This document shows, in pieces, positions 6,445-63,677 of a DNA stretch of 64,000 nucleotides (position 1 is the stretch's first letter; each line of letters begins with the position of its first letter). The notes beneath the pieces are model-generated. The model was not told the origin of the DNA, made no database searches, and was given only the letters and a program-made list of their open reading frames with translations. The position numbers were made by a program, and so were the translations under genes. This DNA comes from Gyrodactylus bullatarudis (lineage: Eukaryota; Platyhelminthes; Monogenea; Gyrodactylidea; Gyrodactylidae), in assembly GCA_012064415.1 (NCBI GenBank), contig SSNU01000042.1:281822-345821 (forward strand), in the 5' to 3' direction.

Positions 6445-8114
6445 ATGGAAAAGTACAAGAGCCACATTTCACTAAATGATACCGTTATTCTCAATGATGG
6501 CTCATTTTATCGGGCTATTAAAATTGAGAAAAAGTAAATAATCACTTTTTGACATGTTTTAGGACTTATAACTTCAAGGGTCAAAAGTTTGATTTAAGTT
6601 TGCTGATCGATTTTCCCTATGATGCCTATTTGGTGTTAAATTCTGATGGCATTGAGATTGCCAACCTCAAACAAATTTCCATGATAGAGGAAGACCTCGA
6701 GGAAGATGATCGTAATAACAAAAATCTGAAATCGTCGACGGAAAATCAAAAACTTTCCACGGATGAAATACTCCAGATGAAAACCCAAGGTCTCGATGGC
6801 GAGGAGTTAATTGCGAAGCTAAAGGAAAACAGCACAAGCTTTAATGAGAAAACTCCATTCTCCCAACAAAAGTACATCAAAAAGAAGATTCAGCGTCACT
6901 TGAAGATTTTTCGAATTCGTCCGATGAATTTGAGGAATTACCATGCCTACCTGATGAGTGTGGTCCCATCTAAAATGCTCTACATGAGGATAGACACCCT
7001 GAGTCAGATCATCTCTCTGGCCAATGTCGAGTACAATTCCAAGGTCCTCCTCCTGGAAAATTGCAATGCAATTTTGATGTTTGGCCTGTCTGATCGGATT
7101 GACACTGCAGTGGGACGCATTGTAAACGTGTTCTCTGATCAAACCTTTATTAATGAAAATGCAGAGTTAATCAATAGCCTGGGAACTATTTATCACATGA
7201 TGTTAATGGATCTAATGAGTCTTGTCATGTTGGGATATCCCAAGAATACACTGACCCGGTTTGTGAACAAAATTCTCAGATATCTGGCCAGGCAAAAAGT
7301 TGACAGACTATCCAGGGGCAACCCAGATGCTCTTGTAGGCCAAAAACGTGGTCTAGATGACATGAATCATCGTATTGTCGAGGTATGCACAGTTTTTCTA
7401 ACAATTTTGTAATTTATTAAAGAATATTCCTTCTCGCCTAGCTGTGCAGGCGGTTTCCTCAACTGGATAGCATTGTGAGTTTGGCATTTCCCCATCTATA
7501 TCATCTTCATCTGACAATTTCCTTAGGAATTATTACACGAGATACCGTCAGAGTTGTCGGAAAACTGTGAAAAATTTATCGACCAAGTTGCCTCAGAGAT
7601 GACCTTGAAATTAGAGCCGATTCTCGACCTGTTCACCTGCAGTAATGGCATGGAGTTTGATTCCCTCATCATTGCTCCTCGCTTTCATCCAGTGGAGTTA
7701 ACTCTGGTCATGTTGCAGCTTATGCCTCCGGGGAAACCTTTTGTTATCTATTCAGAGCACATTCAGGTTCTCGTTGATTTGTACGTGAAGCTCAAAGGTC
7801 TTTCAAAGTTAACCAGTGATGATTCAACAGAATTTCCCGGCATTTTTGCCGACTGCTTGTCCATAACAGACTCTTGGATGCGAAGATATCAAATTCTCCC
7901 CAACAGGACACACCCCGAGGTATCCATTAATGAAGCTGCTAGCGGCTATCTCCTCCACGGCTATACAATTGCAAATGATTTTGCCGAGAATGTCGAAGAA
8001 CGTCTTTTGAGCCGACAAAAGACCCTGAGAATCTTTTCAGACCATGGTCTCCTTACAGACCAGTCAAAGTATAACATTGTCATCCCCAAGGACTACGGCA
8101 AGAAATCCAATTAA
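6445..8114 (+). CDS. TRMT6: tRNA (adenine-58-N1)-methyltransferase non-catalytic subunit TRM6
   Basis: Four exons join in phase: 6445-6533, 6563-7382, 7442-7474 and 7527-8114, giving 509 residues (human about 497). Introns are 29, 59 and 52 nt. The third exon is a 33-nt microexon encoding LCRRFPQLDSI. The protein has the Gcd10/TRM6 N-terminal barrel strands (VILNDGSFYRAIKI, TYNFKGQKF), an acidic linker, the conserved FSQQKYIKKKIQRH and FRIRPMNLRNYHAYLM segments, and a Rossmann-like C-terminal half (LIIAPRFHPVELTLVMLQLMPPGKPFVIYSEH). With TRMT61 it forms the tetramer that makes m1A58 in tRNAs, including initiator tRNA. As expected for this subunit, no S-adenosylmethionine GxGxG motif is visible. 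The first exon is too short for an ORF scan and was placed by phase and family similarity. Confidence 0.94.
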
Positions 8115-9222: not shown

Positions 9223-10194
9223 CTAGGCAATGTAAGTTGGAGTGACATATCTGAAGAATAGGGAAGCGCCCCTGTTCAGATTATTCGAGTTGTGAAGACT
9301 TCTGAAGCAATGCATTGAATTATAATAAGAAATGGAACCGGGCAACATAGACCCGGAGATGCACATTGAAAATGAAACAACAATAAGAGGATGAGTGAAA
9401 CTGGACACGACTAGTGACGCCAAAGAAACTGATTGTTCCTTCAGGGCTTTTTGGGGGTCAGTATTGTTGTCGAAAACATAATTGTTAAAGACAAAAACAA
9501 ATGCACCGACGGCCAGAGTATTTACAATATCCATAAAACAGCGTGGCACGAGACCTGATAAGAAACCAGATCCACTGTCTTGAGCGAAAATCTCAAGAGT
9601 TGTCTTCAACATAGAGCTGAAATTAGAAAAAAATTACAATTCGTATTGAATTAAAAGAAAGATGATCAAGTTCCAAGGTAAAACGAACGTGTAAATGCCA
9701 ACATTTTGAGCCCTATCGACAATTTGGCGGACCATTATGACCTGAAAGGGATAGGCTATGGCAGTACCACAAGCCCGAGCCAGTCCCAACTGAGTAGATG
9801 TCTTCATGCACTTGAGAAAACCTTTATCAGTCTCGATATTGGATTTTTTACGATGAAAGGCGGGAAAGAAGCGTTCCGCAGCAATATCAGTAGCCAGAGT
9901 TCGAATTGATTCGTTTATTATAGAGGCTGGCAGGCCAGTTGTGAACAGTCCCCAGAGGCCAATATCTTGGTAAATCTTTTTGAGGTATCTAAGAATATTT
10001 GGGTAGCAATAGGCAGGTTTTTGACTGAATAATTTGTGAGTTAACTCATAAGGGAGAGGTTCATAGCCAACCTAAAACCAAAATAAATAGCCAATTATTC
10101 ATACTATCATAAGAACCCGGCATAAATTAATCGGGTGAGCTAAAGTTGATAAACCAAAGGGAACTATAATTTCGGAAACAAGATCACTGTTCAT
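9223..10194 (-). CDS. MTCH2: Mitochondrial carrier homolog 2-like protein
   Basis: Exons 10105-10194, 9689-10071 and 9223-9616 join in phase to give 288 residues (human 303). Introns are 33 nt (10072-10104) and 72 nt (9617-9688). The N-terminal repeat has LAHPINLCRVLMIVGYEPLP, a very good match to the conserved VGYEPLP of the family. Later come RACGTAIAYPFQVIMVRQIV, the degenerate carrier signature FLSGLVPR..MDI, and NRGASLFFR near the end. MTCH2 is a divergent SLC25-type outer-membrane protein that acts as an insertase and tBID receptor. The 33-nt intron cannot be read through, because a TGA follows at once, so it must be spliced or the first exon is wrong. The start lies 136 bp from that of LSM5. 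Confidence 0.9.
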
Positions 10195-19929: not shown

Positions 19930-20416
19930 ATGTTTATCATATTAGCCTTTTTTACCATATTTGGAATGGTAGTTGTGGAAGGAATTCTCAGTTCGAAAAA
20001 TTACCTGTCAATCTGTAAAAAACCTCCTGGTTATGGATCTGGGTACAAAAATGAAGAAAAATGGTATTATGATGATAGTAGAAGAGATTGCTTCCGATTC
20101 ACATACCAAGGTAACGATTATGGAGATGAAAATAGGTTCAGTTCGTATGAGGAATGTAGAAAGCATTGCATGGGTAAGAGATTTGTTAAGTTGACTTTTT
20201 TCCTGAAAAACAGTTAAAGATAGCAAATGTAAAAAGTCTAGAGGATCAAAATGTTCAGGAAATGGCTTGAGCTTTCACTATGACGACGAGAAAAATGAGT
20301 GTGAACTTACTGAGTGTGATTATAACCACAAGAAGAACTTCATGAACGAACGTGAATGCAGGGAAGCCTGTGTCTGTAAGTTTTCAGCTTTTCTATTTTT
20401 TCCAGTTTCCTCATAG
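19930..20416 (+). CDS. Secreted two-domain Kunitz protein A
   Basis: Exon 1 is 19930-20173 and the second exon starts at 20214, after a 40-nt intron. The ATG at 19930 gives a signal peptide (MFIILAFFTIFGMVVVEG); the frame is open upstream but has no nearer ATG. Domain 1 (ICKKPPG, RRDCFRFTYQGND, YEECRKHC) has C1, C3, C5 and C6 only. Domain 2, in the second exon, has six cysteines, with C1-x7-C2, C2-x15-C3 and an unusually short C3-x4-C4. The tail is ambiguous: a 30-nt GT-AG stretch at 20376-20405 is a multiple of three, and both the spliced and unspliced forms end at TAG 20414-20416 (138 or 148 residues). It shares architecture with the minus-strand gene at 21167-21621. Confidence 0.8.
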
Positions 20417-21166: not shown

Positions 21167-21621
21167 TCAACCCCGAATGCATTCCCTTGTGCATTCATCT
21201 TCACTGATAAAGCTATCTTTTCTGTCATATTTACAATCACTGACTTGGCAATAGCCTCCCCTCTCATTGTAGTAATAACTAAACCCATTACTCGTAGATT
21301 TGCACTGTCTCCTGTAGGATTTCATACACCTTTCAGGCTCTAAAAGATAATACAATAATAGTTCTCACTCATGCATGTTCTCAAGCAGGTCTCTTCATCT
21401 GGAAATCTATTGGCTTCCTCGCCTAGATCATTGCCAGAATAGATAAACTTTTGGCATAGGCCTAAATCAATGTTGTAGAACCAGTAAATTTCTACTTCAT
21501 CATCAGGACCAGACCCTGAATCGAGGGCTAGAAGGCAGACATTGACTTTCTTTTGCGTCTGGGTGAAGAATAAACCGAAACACACCAGACTATGGAACAG
21601 GACGAAAAGTATCACTTTCAT
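21167..21621 (-). CDS. Secreted two-domain Kunitz protein B
   Basis: Exons 21369-21621 and 21167-21339 are joined across a 29-nt GT-AG intron (21340-21368), giving 141 residues. I chose the ATG at 21619-21621 because it starts a signal peptide (MKVILFVLFHSLVCFGLFF); an ORF continues upstream. Domain 1 has C1 (VNVCLLALDSGSG), C3 (GLCQKFIYSGNDLG), C5 and C6 (ETCLRTC) and lacks C2 and C4. Domain 2 has all six cysteines, with C1-x7-C2 and a short C3-x4-C4 (YCQVSDC), ending DECTRECIRG. The intron falls at the same place as in gene A, right after domain 1. The paralogy is clear; the function is unknown. Confidence 0.85.
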
Positions 21622-40386: not shown

Positions 40387-43300
40387 ATGAATCTTGATCA
40401 AGATCAGTATGAAGACTTGATAGCTCACTATGTGAGTGGATTCATAATTTTTTATTCAATTTCAGGACAAAATCAAATATGTTAAGGAAAGTGTCTGTAT
40501 TAATGATGTTTTACCGAAAGAAATCATCTTGCAAATATTTTCTTTCTTTGATGTCAAAACACTGACTCAGATTTCAGTAGTTTGTAAAGTAATTTATCAG
40601 ATAAATTTATGCATTTTTCTCTAAGTTCTGGTATGAATGTGCTTTTGATGGGTCACTTTGGCGAGATGTTGACTTATTCGGATATCAGACGATTGTCACC
40701 AAAAGTCTCATTCAAAAGATTTCCTCCTATAGTGGAAATTTTCTCAGATCCATCAACCTGAAAGGATGTCGGTGTCTGAATGATGAAACTGTCAAGTTTG
40801 TTGTCAATTTCTTGATTTCTTTTTTCTCTGTAGAATTTTCACAGAACTCTGTAGACACATTGAAGTTATTGATGTATCTCAATGTTCAAATTTGACGAAT
40901 GCAGTCTGTCGCTTGATTGCTGATAACTGTCCAAATCTTAGAGTTCTCGCCATGGAATCAATCAATAGTTTGGACCATTTTGGGTTCAGTTATCTCAAGT
41001 AAATATTTAGAAAATCAAAATATTTCTGAAACCTCATTAATACGAATATTTAGGCGCTGTTCTCGTTTAATAAGCCTGAACGTCTCCTGGTCCAAGATTA
41101 CCGACCAGAATCTAATTTACATTGCTGATGGATGTCGTCGTCTTCAACAGCTTCGCTGCATCGGATGTCAGAATATTACGAGCAATGGGATAATCTCTAT
41201 AGCTAAACGATGTCCGCGCTTAACCACTTTGAATCTCAATTATTGCCAAAATGTAAGTCTTTTGTTCCTTCACCTGAAATGCAATGCAAAATTTCAAGGA
41301 TCCATTTCCTTCCTAGAACATTACTGATCATGCTCTGGTCCATTTAACCTTGAATTGTCCTGACCTCAGGGTTCTATGCCTCTCATATTGTTCTATAACT
41401 GATGTTGGACTAAGGGCCTTGGCTGGATGCTTAAACAAGGCCATGATTGGTTCATTATTTCATTTTACTCTGCCATCTAGTGACATTCTCATTAGGTATA
41501 ACCTGCAGGTTTTGGCACAACAATCAAATCAGCTGACACGGTAAGACTCTTTCCTTATAACTAGGGTCCCAAAAAAGTCCACTAAAATAAGATTTTAGGC
41601 GCCTACGAAAATAGTCTGTTTCTTTAACTAAATTAGTCTATTAGAACTATTCCATTAAAAAAATATACTACAGTCAGTATTCCAATTTGCCGGTCAATTT
41701 TTATCACCTATATTTCTACTCGCAAAATAAATTTCACCATTACCTTATTACTTATGAGTAGACATATCATATCAAAAGGTTCGTTAAATTTTAGATTTGA
41801 TTACAACAAGTACTAATCGATAGATCTTCTTTTTCTGTACTTATAAGTAAATTCAGTCAAGATTCATTGATGATTTTATGACAGTTTTCAGAAAAATTTT
41901 CATCTCTAAAATTCACGGTAAATTCATCAAAGAACGTTACGCGGCACTTCAGGGCTTTTCTACAATGTTTGTGCTTGACGTGACATTTTAATCAATGTGA
42001 ATAATCAATTGGCAAAAAAATTAGAAAATGGGGGGTGGTATTGATATCTTCTCTATGATTGGTCCATCACTTGGTATACTTGACCGAGGACCAATAGGAG
42101 TAGAGATAGAATGTGAGAGATAGTCAAATGTAGAAATAGTCATCCTATGATAGTCTATTATTTTTTTTAGGCTTTTTTTAACAATGAAATAGGTCATAAA
42201 AGTCGTTTATCAAATCATATTCAATAGGTATATAGCGTAATAAGAATGATGTGAATTGGTATATTACATAAAATAGTCCTATAAAATTGAAAAGTCATTT
42301 TTAGGCTTTTTGAGGCCCTACTTATAACTGTATTAATGAAATTCATCCAAATCTACAGTTATCCAATAATACGAGGGCCGATCGCAAGCAACAGTCAGAA
42401 TCAGCAATATTTCAATCCCATCGGGAACATGAATAATGTAACATTTGATAGTGGAATTAGTCAGAACAACGGCCCAATGAATGTAGTGTCAACATCTGGG
42501 GAAAGACAATCCCTCCGACTGGGTCCCATTAAATCGGTTGATGGAATGATGGGCGGTTGTAAAAAGTTGAAATCGATAGAATTGGCACATTGTTTCTCCA
42601 TAAGTGATAACGGTATTATTTCTCTAACTCGACAATGTCCACTGGTAAGAGATCAAAATGAGTAAATGCATACTTAGACCCCCTCCCCCTAAGTATTGTT
42701 AAGCACGTAAAATGCTGATTCCGAATTGGTGCTCAGATTTTTCCTATCTTACAAGGTTCGGGTATAAATTGGGAAAATGTGAAAAAGCGAAATCAGAACC
42801 AAGCAGATTCAAGCAGATTAAAATTCAGTGAAAAATCACTTTTGAATTAAGCTCAATAACTTCGAGACCAGGAATAAGACAAACTCATACGATACATCAG
42901 GGGAAAGAACGATAAATTTAGCATCAGATTTGTTCCGAAAACCTGAACATTTAAACTGGGAACGTATTTTAATTGATCTATTTAGCCAAAAATTGTTGCT
43001 AATTTTATTTTGTTTGAAATTTACTCGCAATTGTGATGCCTGTTTTTGCAAATTTCGCTTTTTCACATTTTCTCAGTTTACAACCAAACCTTGTAAGATA
43101 GGAAAATTCTGAGCACCAATTCGGAATCAGCATGAAAATTTACACAAGAATTTTTATATCTCGTTAAAGTTCGTGACCCCACTACCACCCGAGTTATCTT
43201 CGAAATGAGATTGAACTAATAAGTAAACTTTTCTCATTCATTCAATATAAATGTAGCTTGAGAAAATTGATCTGGAAGGTTGCAGTCTCATAACAGATTT

Positions 43301-46447: not shown

Positions 46448-55500
<9,053 letters not shown>

Positions 55501-61552: not shown

Positions 61553-63677
61553 ATGTCGGATGAAAGTCTCCAGGTAACTTTTAGCAAGATCACCGGCAAC
61601 AAGGCCGGAATGGAAGGCCTCGACAAGGAGACCATAGCCAAGATAATCCGGGAAAACTCAAAGGGTTCCAAATTCTACGACAATGAATTCGCCAAGGAAC
61701 GCAATGTCCAACGTCAAATGGAAGAAAAGATTTCGCAGAGCCGGCGTTTAACTGAATTCCAACTAGCCGAAGGAAGCGCAGAAGTAAGAAGTGTAGAGTA
61801 TTTCTCGAGTTACCCAATAAAATTCACGAGAATTACGAATCTCATCCCTATTTTCTATACGAACAGGGCGATAGAATCCTTACCGAGTTGACACAACGCC
61901 AAGATTACTCGCGAACCTTTGTCCACATCGATATGGACGCTTATTACGCGAGCGTCGAATTGAGAGACAGGCCAGATCTCCGAGAGAAACCGATGGCAGT
62001 CGGCTCCAACATGATGCTCTCCACGAGTAATTACATTGCCCGACGTTTCGGTGTTCGCTCAGCTATGCCCGGCTTCATTGGAAAGAAACTATGTCCCAAC
62101 TTGGTGATTATTGAGCCAGATTTTGTAAAATACTCCGAGGTTAGCAAGAATATTCGTAGAATTATGACAGAGTATGCCGATCCTAACGTCGGCCTGGTTA
62201 CAATGAGTCTTGATGAAGCCTATCTAGAGATTACAGAGGCCCTCAAGTTCAGATCTAGTCTGTCAAATGAACGAAGAACATTCCCGCCTAAAAGTCCCGC
62301 CTTTGGGACCATGCTTTGTCGGTGAGTTTTGTCATGAATAAATTTTAAAAAATATCTCGTAAATTTATTTTCAAAACAAAAATAATCGAAAAGATATTCA
62401 TAAAATAATTTCGGCCTTGACTTAGTGGTGGATGCCAGCAATATATCCATGTCCGTAGTATGGGGTATGGGCAGTCTTGACTGAGCTAACTGAGTGGTGG
62501 ACAGCTGGGTAGGTGGAGGCAACAGTCTTTTGACTGACGACAGCGCCGTGATGAAGACCGTGATAGCCGAATCCTGCATGACCCAAATGGGCATCATAAA
62601 CTGGACCGACAGCACTGGCTAGACAGACGAAAGCAAGGATGATTGAGATGATTGAATTCATAACTGTTGTGTTTTTTGTCTCTTTTAATCCAACCGTCTT
62701 ATTTATACTCTTTGTTGCAACCTGTTGGTGATAAAACATTTCATTTATTCCGGTCTGGACATTCTTCACTCTATAACATGACCTTGTACTTTAGAGAGAA
62801 AAAAAGTATTCTTTAATTGAAAAAAATATTGAACTTTTACCAAAAAGCCTTTAACTGATCTATTTTTATGAGTCCCAATAAAACTACTCGTAAAGCTTTG
62901 AGTCCATCACTTATAAATGAAAAGTTCTCCATTGGGGTGGATGTGTGTATTATTAACCTTTATTAACACTCTAAAATCAACAATGATGAATGATCACTGG
63001 AATATCACATGACCTCTGACAGGCTCTAGGACATTCAGAGATGGCTCTTTTGATAATCCTTCTACCACACAAGGGACACGTTGAGCATAGAGTTACAGGC
63101 GTCGGTCTGCACTGGCAACTTGTTCTCGTCAATCGATTACTTTGATTTGAAATGCAAACGGGAACATGAACAACATCGATCATCTGGCATTCCCTTGGCA
63201 TCCTTTCACCAGATTTCATTGTCAACATTCCTTTTTATAAGTAAATAAAAGAGGCCTAATCATGTGTGCACCATTGAGAGTTTTGTGATTGAATTCCGAA
63301 CTCAGCTGATTAGAATTTTTCTTCAAGTAACAAACTATTTTATTCACTATCTTAGATGTTCCAAAGACCACCGAGAGTCTGTGTTGAAAGAGAACAGTGA
63401 AGGAAAAAGAATTGACGAACGTCTCCTCACCTGCAGTATCTGCCTCAAGTTGGTCAAGACGGGTAATCGAACCTTTGGCCAAGATGCCAATGAATTAGTT
63501 CACGAGATGAGATATCGAATCTACCTTGAAACGATGCTCACCTCAAGCGGAGGGATAGCATGTAACACGTTACTCTCAAAAATAGCCTCCGACATTAACA
63601 AGCCAAACGGATTATTCGCGATTGAATCGTCTGAGAATGCAATACGAAAGTTTATGGAGGATCTGCCGATACGAAAG
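61553..63677 (+). CDS. POLK: DNA polymerase kappa, N-terminal part (runs off the window)
   Basis: Exons 61553-61783, 61867-62321 and 63356-63677 join in phase to 336 residues, ending at a GTAAGT donor; further exons lie beyond the window. I chose the ATG at 61553 (MSDESLQVTF) since NKAGMEGLDKETIAKII..NSKGSKFY follows at the family's usual place; an upstream in-frame ATG at 61478 exists. The N-clasp precedes the catalytic palm: HIDMDAYYASVELRD (metal-binding Asp), STSNYIARRFGVRSAMPGFI and MSLDEAYLEIT (Asp-Glu). Later come LTSSGGIACNTLLSKIASDINKPNG and DLPIRK. It is a Y-family translesion polymerase that extends past bulky lesions. The stretch replacing the usual linker is Cys-bearing (CRCSKDH, CSICLKL). 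Intron 62322-63355 holds two opposite-strand genes. Confidence 0.95.
62422..62661 (-). CDS. Nested secreted His/Gly/Tyr-rich cuticle-like protein
   Basis: This intronless 79-residue protein on the minus strand inside a POLK intron starts at ATG 62659-62661. A signal peptide (MNSIISIILAFVCLASAVGP) is followed by His/Gly/Tyr-rich sequence: HLGHAGFGYHGLHHGAVV, STYPAVHHSVSSVKTAHTPY, YGHGYIAGIHH. The AVHHSVSSVKTA-type blocks resemble low-complexity cuticular proteins of arthropods. A TATAAATAAG box lies at 62698-62707, about 40 bp upstream. Confidence 0.8.
   Translation of the reverse strand: MNSIISIILAFVCLASAVGPVYDAHLGHAGFGYHGLHHGAVVSQKTVASTYPAVHHSVSSVKTAHTPYYGHGYIAGIHH
62698..62707 (-). promoter_or_regulatory. 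TATA box of the nested cuticle-like gene
   Basis: TATAAATAAG on the minus strand, 37-46 bp before the ATG, consistent with a short 5' UTR. Confidence 0.6.
62977..63201 (-). CDS. Nested small Cys-rich protein
   Basis: A second minus-strand ORF lies in the same POLK intron. From ATG 63199-63201 it encodes 74 residues with 11 cysteines: MPRECQMIDVVHVPVCIS, then SCQCRPTPVTLCSTCPLCGR, then SECPRACQRSCDIPVIIHHC. The frame also has an ATG at 63226-63228, but a TATAAAAAG box at 63231-63239 lies only 3 bp before it, so the downstream start fits better. There is no signal peptide. The Cys-Pro motifs recall small Cys-rich sperm-tail or structural proteins; no family is recognised. Confidence 0.58.
   Translation of the reverse strand: MPRECQMIDVVHVPVCISNQSNRLTRTSCQCRPTPVTLCSTCPLCGRRIIKRAISECPRACQRSCDIPVIIHHC
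63231..63239 (-). promoter_or_regulatory. TATA box of the nested Cys-rich gene
   Basis: TATAAAAAG on the minus strand, 30-38 bp before ATG 63201. Its position decides between the two possible starts. Confidence 0.5.

Follow-up and report, generated by a model that had tools for sequence, protein, structure and literature searches.

Can the ordinary animal spliceosome remove introns of about 30 nucleotides (nt), or do introns of this size call for machinery of a special kind? The question is raised by a stretch of 64,000 nucleotides of contig SSNU01000042.1 (the window), in which six segments of 29 to 40 nt interrupt the coding sequences of TRMT6, a gene named MTCH2, two Kunitz-domain genes (A and B) and an FBXL gene. 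An initial annotation had read these segments as introns and had taken their repeated use as a pointer to an unusual minimal-intron spliceosome. Judged from sequence, the very short introns look real, and sizes of about 30 nt are indeed used repeatedly. The pointer to an unusual spliceosome was not supported: no such spliceosome is needed because flatworms have published introns of the same class, and here U1, U2 and U4 have their usual pairing stretches and U2AF65 and SF1 are present. We are highly confident that these segments of a gyrodactylid monogenean belong to the 'microintron' class known from flatworms and are U2-type spliceosomal introns of the ordinary kind.

All six segments have GT-AG ends and lie exactly where they had been placed, with exactly the lengths claimed (29, 29, 33, 37, 38 and 40 nt), and removal of each rejoins the coding frame. 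If the sequence is read unspliced, an in-frame stop occurs within the segment in TRMT6, Kunitz B, MTCH2 and the 37-nt case of FBXL, and just past the segment in Kunitz A. The 38-nt FBXL segment brings no such stop, yet it shifts the frame. Around each junction we listed the GT-AG pairs that span 15 nt or more and kept those that held the frame without a stop (Table 1). Because of the number of pairs that remain, the frame alone settles Kunitz B only, and the other five segments need evidence from the encoded protein.

For TRMT6, the alignment of the spliced protein with human TRM6 (5ccb_B, 1.3e-45) runs across the junction of the 29-nt intron and has a gap of one residue. A search for relatives of TRMT6 returned 31 proteins, with no flatworm among the named ones. 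The spliced FBXL protein aligns with FBXL2 (6o60_C, 4.9e-53) without gaps over both the 37- and the 38-nt junctions. A further putative FBXL intron, of 34 nt, keeps the frame and sits 5' of the FBXL2-aligned part. The introns of Kunitz A and Kunitz B are identical in position and phase, directly after the last Kunitz cysteine. The gene model described below did not call the 29-nt intron of Kunitz B and picked 85 nt in Kunitz A, where the 40-nt choice is not unique; the 40-nt intron rests on its paralog. The name MTCH2 comes from the initial annotation, and the tested part of this protein gave no Pfam match at E 1e-3. The spliced sequence appears to resemble MTCH2, and the 33-nt intron rests on the frame and on this likeness.

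Table 1. Introns of the window, with the number of frame-keeping, stop-free GT-AG pairs around each junction (the claimed pair counted)
Intron	Length (nt)	Window positions	Strand	Pairs	Features
TRMT6	29	6534..6562	+	4	GTAAAT...TTTTAG; after 29 codons and 2 bases; phase 2
MTCH2-named gene	33	10072..10104	-	6	GT-AG; phase 0; in-frame stops inside
Kunitz gene A	40	20174..20213	+	22	GT-AG; phase 1; Kunitz_BPTI 1.6e-13
Kunitz gene B	29	21340..21368	-	1	Phase 1; sole frame-keeping GT-AG pair in the tested range; Kunitz_BPTI 3.5e-11
FBXL	34	40432..40465	+		GTGAGT...TTTCAG; frame kept; first intron after proposed ATG at 40387; absent from the initial annotation
FBXL	37	40589..40625	+	5	GT-AG
FBXL	38	40796..40833	+	8	GT-AG
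FBXL	55	40999..41053	+		Second length mode; FBXL2 alignment runs on, one-residue gap at junction; gene model 76 nt
FBXL	64	41253..41316	+		Second length mode; FBXL2 alignment runs on, one-residue gap nearby; in gene model

The best-supported micro-introns are those of the CCT chaperonin genes. In CCT3, a 23-nt segment, GTAAGAAATACCTATAATTTCAG (locus L033, 1413-1435), is the sole GT-AG pair in the tested span that gives the conserved amino end MQLPVIVLNQNTKRE, and the spliced amino end is gapless against the CCT3 letters PVLVLSQNTKRE. Of the introns with good support it is the shortest, and by geometry alone any branch adenosine in it would lie at most about 16 nt from the 5' splice site. The flanks of the CCT6 introns, of 31 and 30 nt, are gapless against a solved homolog, and CCT1 and CCT4 each have one 29-nt intron that the gene model overlooked. 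Introns of 28 nt in CCT2, 33 nt in CCT4 and 32 nt in CCT8 appear to agree with the human proteins. Judged in the same way, a 39-nt call of the gene model in CCT2 is presumably coding.

Intron lengths over a larger region form two short modes. The gene model had fixed parameters, with GT, AG and a preference for GTAAG-like donors built in and no preference among short lengths. Run on 264 kilobases (kb), comprising the window and 200 kb upstream and including 6,070 bases N, it called 149 introns, 23 of them below 50 nt, none at 50-54 nt and 34 at 55-74 nt. The addition of 19 loci from elsewhere brought the set to 206. When the 17 calls with a length divisible by three and at least one open frame were dropped, the 189 introns left included 24 of 45 nt or less, none at 46-53 nt, 49 at 54-80 nt and 116 above 80 nt. 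The 206 were also corrected by hand: eight calls were removed (85 nt in Kunitz A, 27 in Kunitz B, 214 and 76 in FBXL, 26 in a polymerase-kappa-like gene, 113 in CCT1, 39 in CCT2 and 68 in CCT4) and eight hand-set lengths were put in (29, 29, 34, 37, 38, 40, 29 and 55 nt). The corrected set has 41 introns of 45 nt or less (median 33), none at 46-53 nt, 52 at 54-80 nt (median 63) and 113 above 80 nt. Eight of the loci (L001-L008) had been fetched by the pattern GTAAGT-N23-AG, which could favour 31 nt; without them, the 190 hand-corrected introns fall into the same four classes as 39, 0, 47 and 104. Modes near 33 and 63 nt stand alongside long introns, and the short class spans 23-45 nt. An intron minimum above 45 nt, which the initial annotation had named as contrary to its claim, was looked for in the 264 kb and the 19 loci, and the claim survived.

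The gap at 46-53 nt is perhaps not absolute. The second TRMT6 intron (window 7383-7526), modelled at 144 nt, may instead be two introns, of 59 and 52 nt, that flank an in-frame exon of 33 nt; this alternative model puts a 52-nt intron in the gap. In the polymerase-kappa-like gene (window 61784-61866), the 26-nt intron of the gene model is probably wrong; an 83-nt intron with the same donor and a CAG end at 61866 appears to be a better fit to the protein. The second mode lies at about twice the first (63 versus 33 nt), as do the published tapeworm peaks (73 versus 36 nt). An origin of the 63-nt mode as two fused micro-introns found no support: internal AGGT occurs in 1 of 53 introns, where 3.3 would be expected. 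An attempt to train the gene model iteratively was dropped, since short introns then flooded the sequence and known introns disappeared.

The small nuclear RNAs (snRNAs) U1, U2 and U4 keep their usual pairing stretches. U1 starts AAACUUACCUGG, a normal stretch for pairing with the 5' splice site, the complete U2 has GUGUAGUAUCUGUUC, and U4 starts AGCUUUGCGCAGUGG. SF1 is present (SF1-HH match, 96 bits), as is U2AF65 (467 bits). The U2AF65 gene (C344:30782-32164) is a single open frame of 502 codons, intronless over the matched part; many other genes have introns. The initial annotation had counted three splicing genes in the window. Two were identified, encoding an LSM protein and SF3B3 (introns of 128, 75 and 65 nt by the gene model); no systematic search of the window was made for the third. 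The LSM protein and SF3B3 are ordinary, and their presence says nothing on intron size.

We postulate intron definition as the most likely mechanism. U1 would pair with the GTAAG-like 5' splice site, and SF1/U2AF, followed by U2, would bind a degenerate branch site that lies a few nucleotides short of the AG. The normal machinery would thereby operate over 23-45 nt, and in the shortest introns the branch adenosine would lie no more than about 20 nt from the 5' splice site. Among the 24 micro-introns of the filtered set, 75% show A at donor position +3, 79% show A at +4 and 67% show G at +5, and these introns are T-rich next to the acceptor AG. We infer that the segments are spliced in vivo, that the branch point lies where this scheme would place it and that the machinery can fit on so short a span.

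Several results weigh against ordinary U2-type introns, and some of them could also be expected if the short introns were gene-model artefacts, that is, sequencing indels, pseudogenes or coding insertions that mimic GT-AG introns. The gene model errs in both directions: we judged 8 of the 206 calls to be wrong, and four of the six claimed introns (Kunitz A, Kunitz B and both in FBXL) escaped it, as did the 29-nt introns of CCT1 and CCT4. The 17 calls of a length divisible by three, open in at least one frame, are possibly coding, as is, presumably, the 39-nt CCT2 call noted above. A decoy-dinucleotide test run without the gene model gave no clear excess of GT-AG in any short bin. No pairs passed at its first threshold, and at threshold 2 the GT-AG ratios over bins from 25 to 44 nt were 1.18, 1.12, 0.53 and 1.09. 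We read this null result as a lack of power, because 60 bases carry little coding signal, and it does not support the claim. Artefacts, however, do not readily account for the conserved CCT1, CCT3, CCT4 and CCT6 proteins, which require that such segments be taken out, each of them starting at a donor and ending at an acceptor AG with T-rich surroundings, or for lengths that form two modes, and we find this explanation hardly credible.

The remaining contrary results concern the splice signals and U6, and some bear on whether a specialised minimal-intron spliceosome or early-assembly route (e.g., a U2AF-independent path like that of SPF45/RBM17, or an altered U6) serves the class of about 30 nt. 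Donors of the short introns are no nearer the consensus than those of longer introns: in the 24 short, 49 mid-length and 116 long introns, G at +5 is found in 67%, 86% and 78%, and T at +6 in 54%, 82% and 58%. A branch motif was not demonstrated by a search with a yUnAy matrix, since 35 of 200 shuffles matched the score of 34 short introns; nor was it significant in mid-length introns, where 142 of 200 shuffles scored as high. Pyrimidines 9-14 nt from the intron end make up 50-62% in the short introns and 65-73% in the mid-length ones, as a specialised route might predict, but the long introns have 58-61%, so no clear deficit marks the short class. The usual U1, U2 and U4 stretches and the retention of U2AF65 and SF1 also argue against such a route, and Stentor is reported to manage 15-nt introns with conserved U2 and ACAGAGA sites (PMC9505925). 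A specialised spliceosome seems very unlikely to us.

The question of an unusual spliceosome is not fully closed, because of the U6 copy that was found. A search of the 77.3-megabase assembly (471 contigs) with a 34-nt core, at up to three mismatches, found a sole U6-like core (L047 21-123, C154:241223-241325), which reads ACAGAAA and not ACAGAGA. This copy also has AAGAAUGACAC where AAGGAUGACAC is expected, and is without a convincing 5' hairpin; a second, decayed copy (L050 141-241, C426:539063-539163) carries both of the same differences. A compensating change in U4 for the second difference was looked for and is absent, U4 keeping AGCUUUGCGC, and a shared snRNA promoter element, sought as a sign of a live U6, gave nothing above shuffles. 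The U6-like copy may be a pseudogene. We favour the explanation that the working U6 is missing from the assembly and that both copies are dead over the one in which U6 itself has changed. It is a long shot that gyrodactylids splice introns of about 30 nt, and down to 23 nt with the branch adenosine at most about 16 nt from the 5' splice site, using a U6 with ACAGAAA. If they did, a position in the catalytic core of an animal spliceosome would have changed naturally, and the change would be coupled to micro-introns.

Micro-introns come ahead of longer introns in all eight hand-checked genes (CCT1, CCT2, CCT3, CCT4, CCT6, CCT8, FBXL and TRMT6), a post hoc count on partial structures, and come first in only 7 of the 14 ab initio genes with both intron kinds. 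The count of eight excluded CCT5 and HSP60, each one open frame over the matched part, MTCH2, and CCT7, whose single short call comes after a bare ATG; its CCT2 entry includes a 29-nt call after a bare ATG that homology does not cover. Adjacent micro-introns form runs in some genes, such as FBXL and g36.

Introns seem to change in length while their position stays fixed. Two neighbouring paralogs upstream of the window, g13 and g14 (C352, about 148-152 kb), both without a Pfam match, have intron positions in common at which lengths differ: 29 versus 119 nt at one and 42 versus 40 nt at another. Long introns may also occur in the window. A kinase domain and an AMPK-alpha autoinhibitory domain lie near 53-55 kb and an adenylate-sensor domain near 47 kb, on one strand (window 47219-55320). 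This arrangement suggests a single AMPK-alpha gene with kilobase introns, in which case long introns would coexist with micro-introns.

For genome annotation, gene models of gyrodactylids would break if the software's minimum intron length exceeds about 25-45 nt. The problem of minimum intron length in annotation has been remarked on for a fluke (PMC6530080). In addition, the checked CCT genes, TRMT6 and FBXL form a small set, anchored by homology, in which to study how a span of 23-33 nt accommodates an animal spliceosome.

Tiny introns are known from several lineages. Dicyemid mesozoans are, like the present host, parasitic animals with introns of 20-35 nt (PMC2222250, PMC6543705); the median is reported as 27 nt (PMC6543705), and 16 introns of 7 genes are reported to average 26.2 nt (PMC2222250). 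About two thirds of dicyemid introns in these accounts are shorter than 30 nt, whereas here 165 of 206 exceed 45 nt, so that most introns are not below 30 nt. Among ciliates, an unrelated lineage, Paramecium introns are reported at about 25 nt (PMC5014332), and the shortest introns here are as small, with the usual U1 and U2 stretches. Paramecium and Nyctotherus, however, are said to have ultra-short introns only. Human ultra-short introns of 43-65 nt, of which a subset depends on SPF45 (PMC8363638), are likewise described as far under the usual size for an animal spliceosome, but they are longer than those here, and the truncation of the pyrimidine tract is not clear here.

The closest comparison is with other flatworms. 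The host is very probably a gyrodactylid monogenean, a fish-parasitic flatworm. Its COX1, on contig C13, gives an open frame with the flatworm mitochondrial code (table 9) and shares 89% identity with a 68-sequence cluster named for Gyrodactylus albolacustris; the four matches that follow are to Macrogyrodactylus, Cichlidarus and Paragyrodactylus (83-84%) and to Benedenia (71%). Short introns of tapeworms are reported to peak near 36 and 73 nt, a bimodality shared by Gyrodactylus salaris, and the first peak prefers 3' gene positions (PMC5036155). The fluke Opisthorchis felineus has microintrons, also described from other flatworms, with peaks at 37 and 90 nt; they are clustered and 5'-biased, with splice sites nearer the consensus and often without a pyrimidine tract (PMC6530080). 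As in these flatworms, there is here a GT-AG class near 35 nt, a second short mode, long introns and runs of adjacent micro-introns. The modes here look a little shorter (medians of 33 and 63 nt, versus 36 and 73 nt in tapeworms and 37 and 90 nt in the fluke), a provisional difference obtained by another method on a small sample. Donors here are not nearer the consensus, in contrast to the fluke, whose closeness to it is not known to mark the class throughout the flatworms. Searches of openly licensed papers showed no earlier report of a 23-nt gyrodactylid intron. The introns of the window fall at the short end of the flatworm range, in a class whose existence is already published, and the sharper points beyond that class are the lower end of 23 nt and the odd U6 copy.
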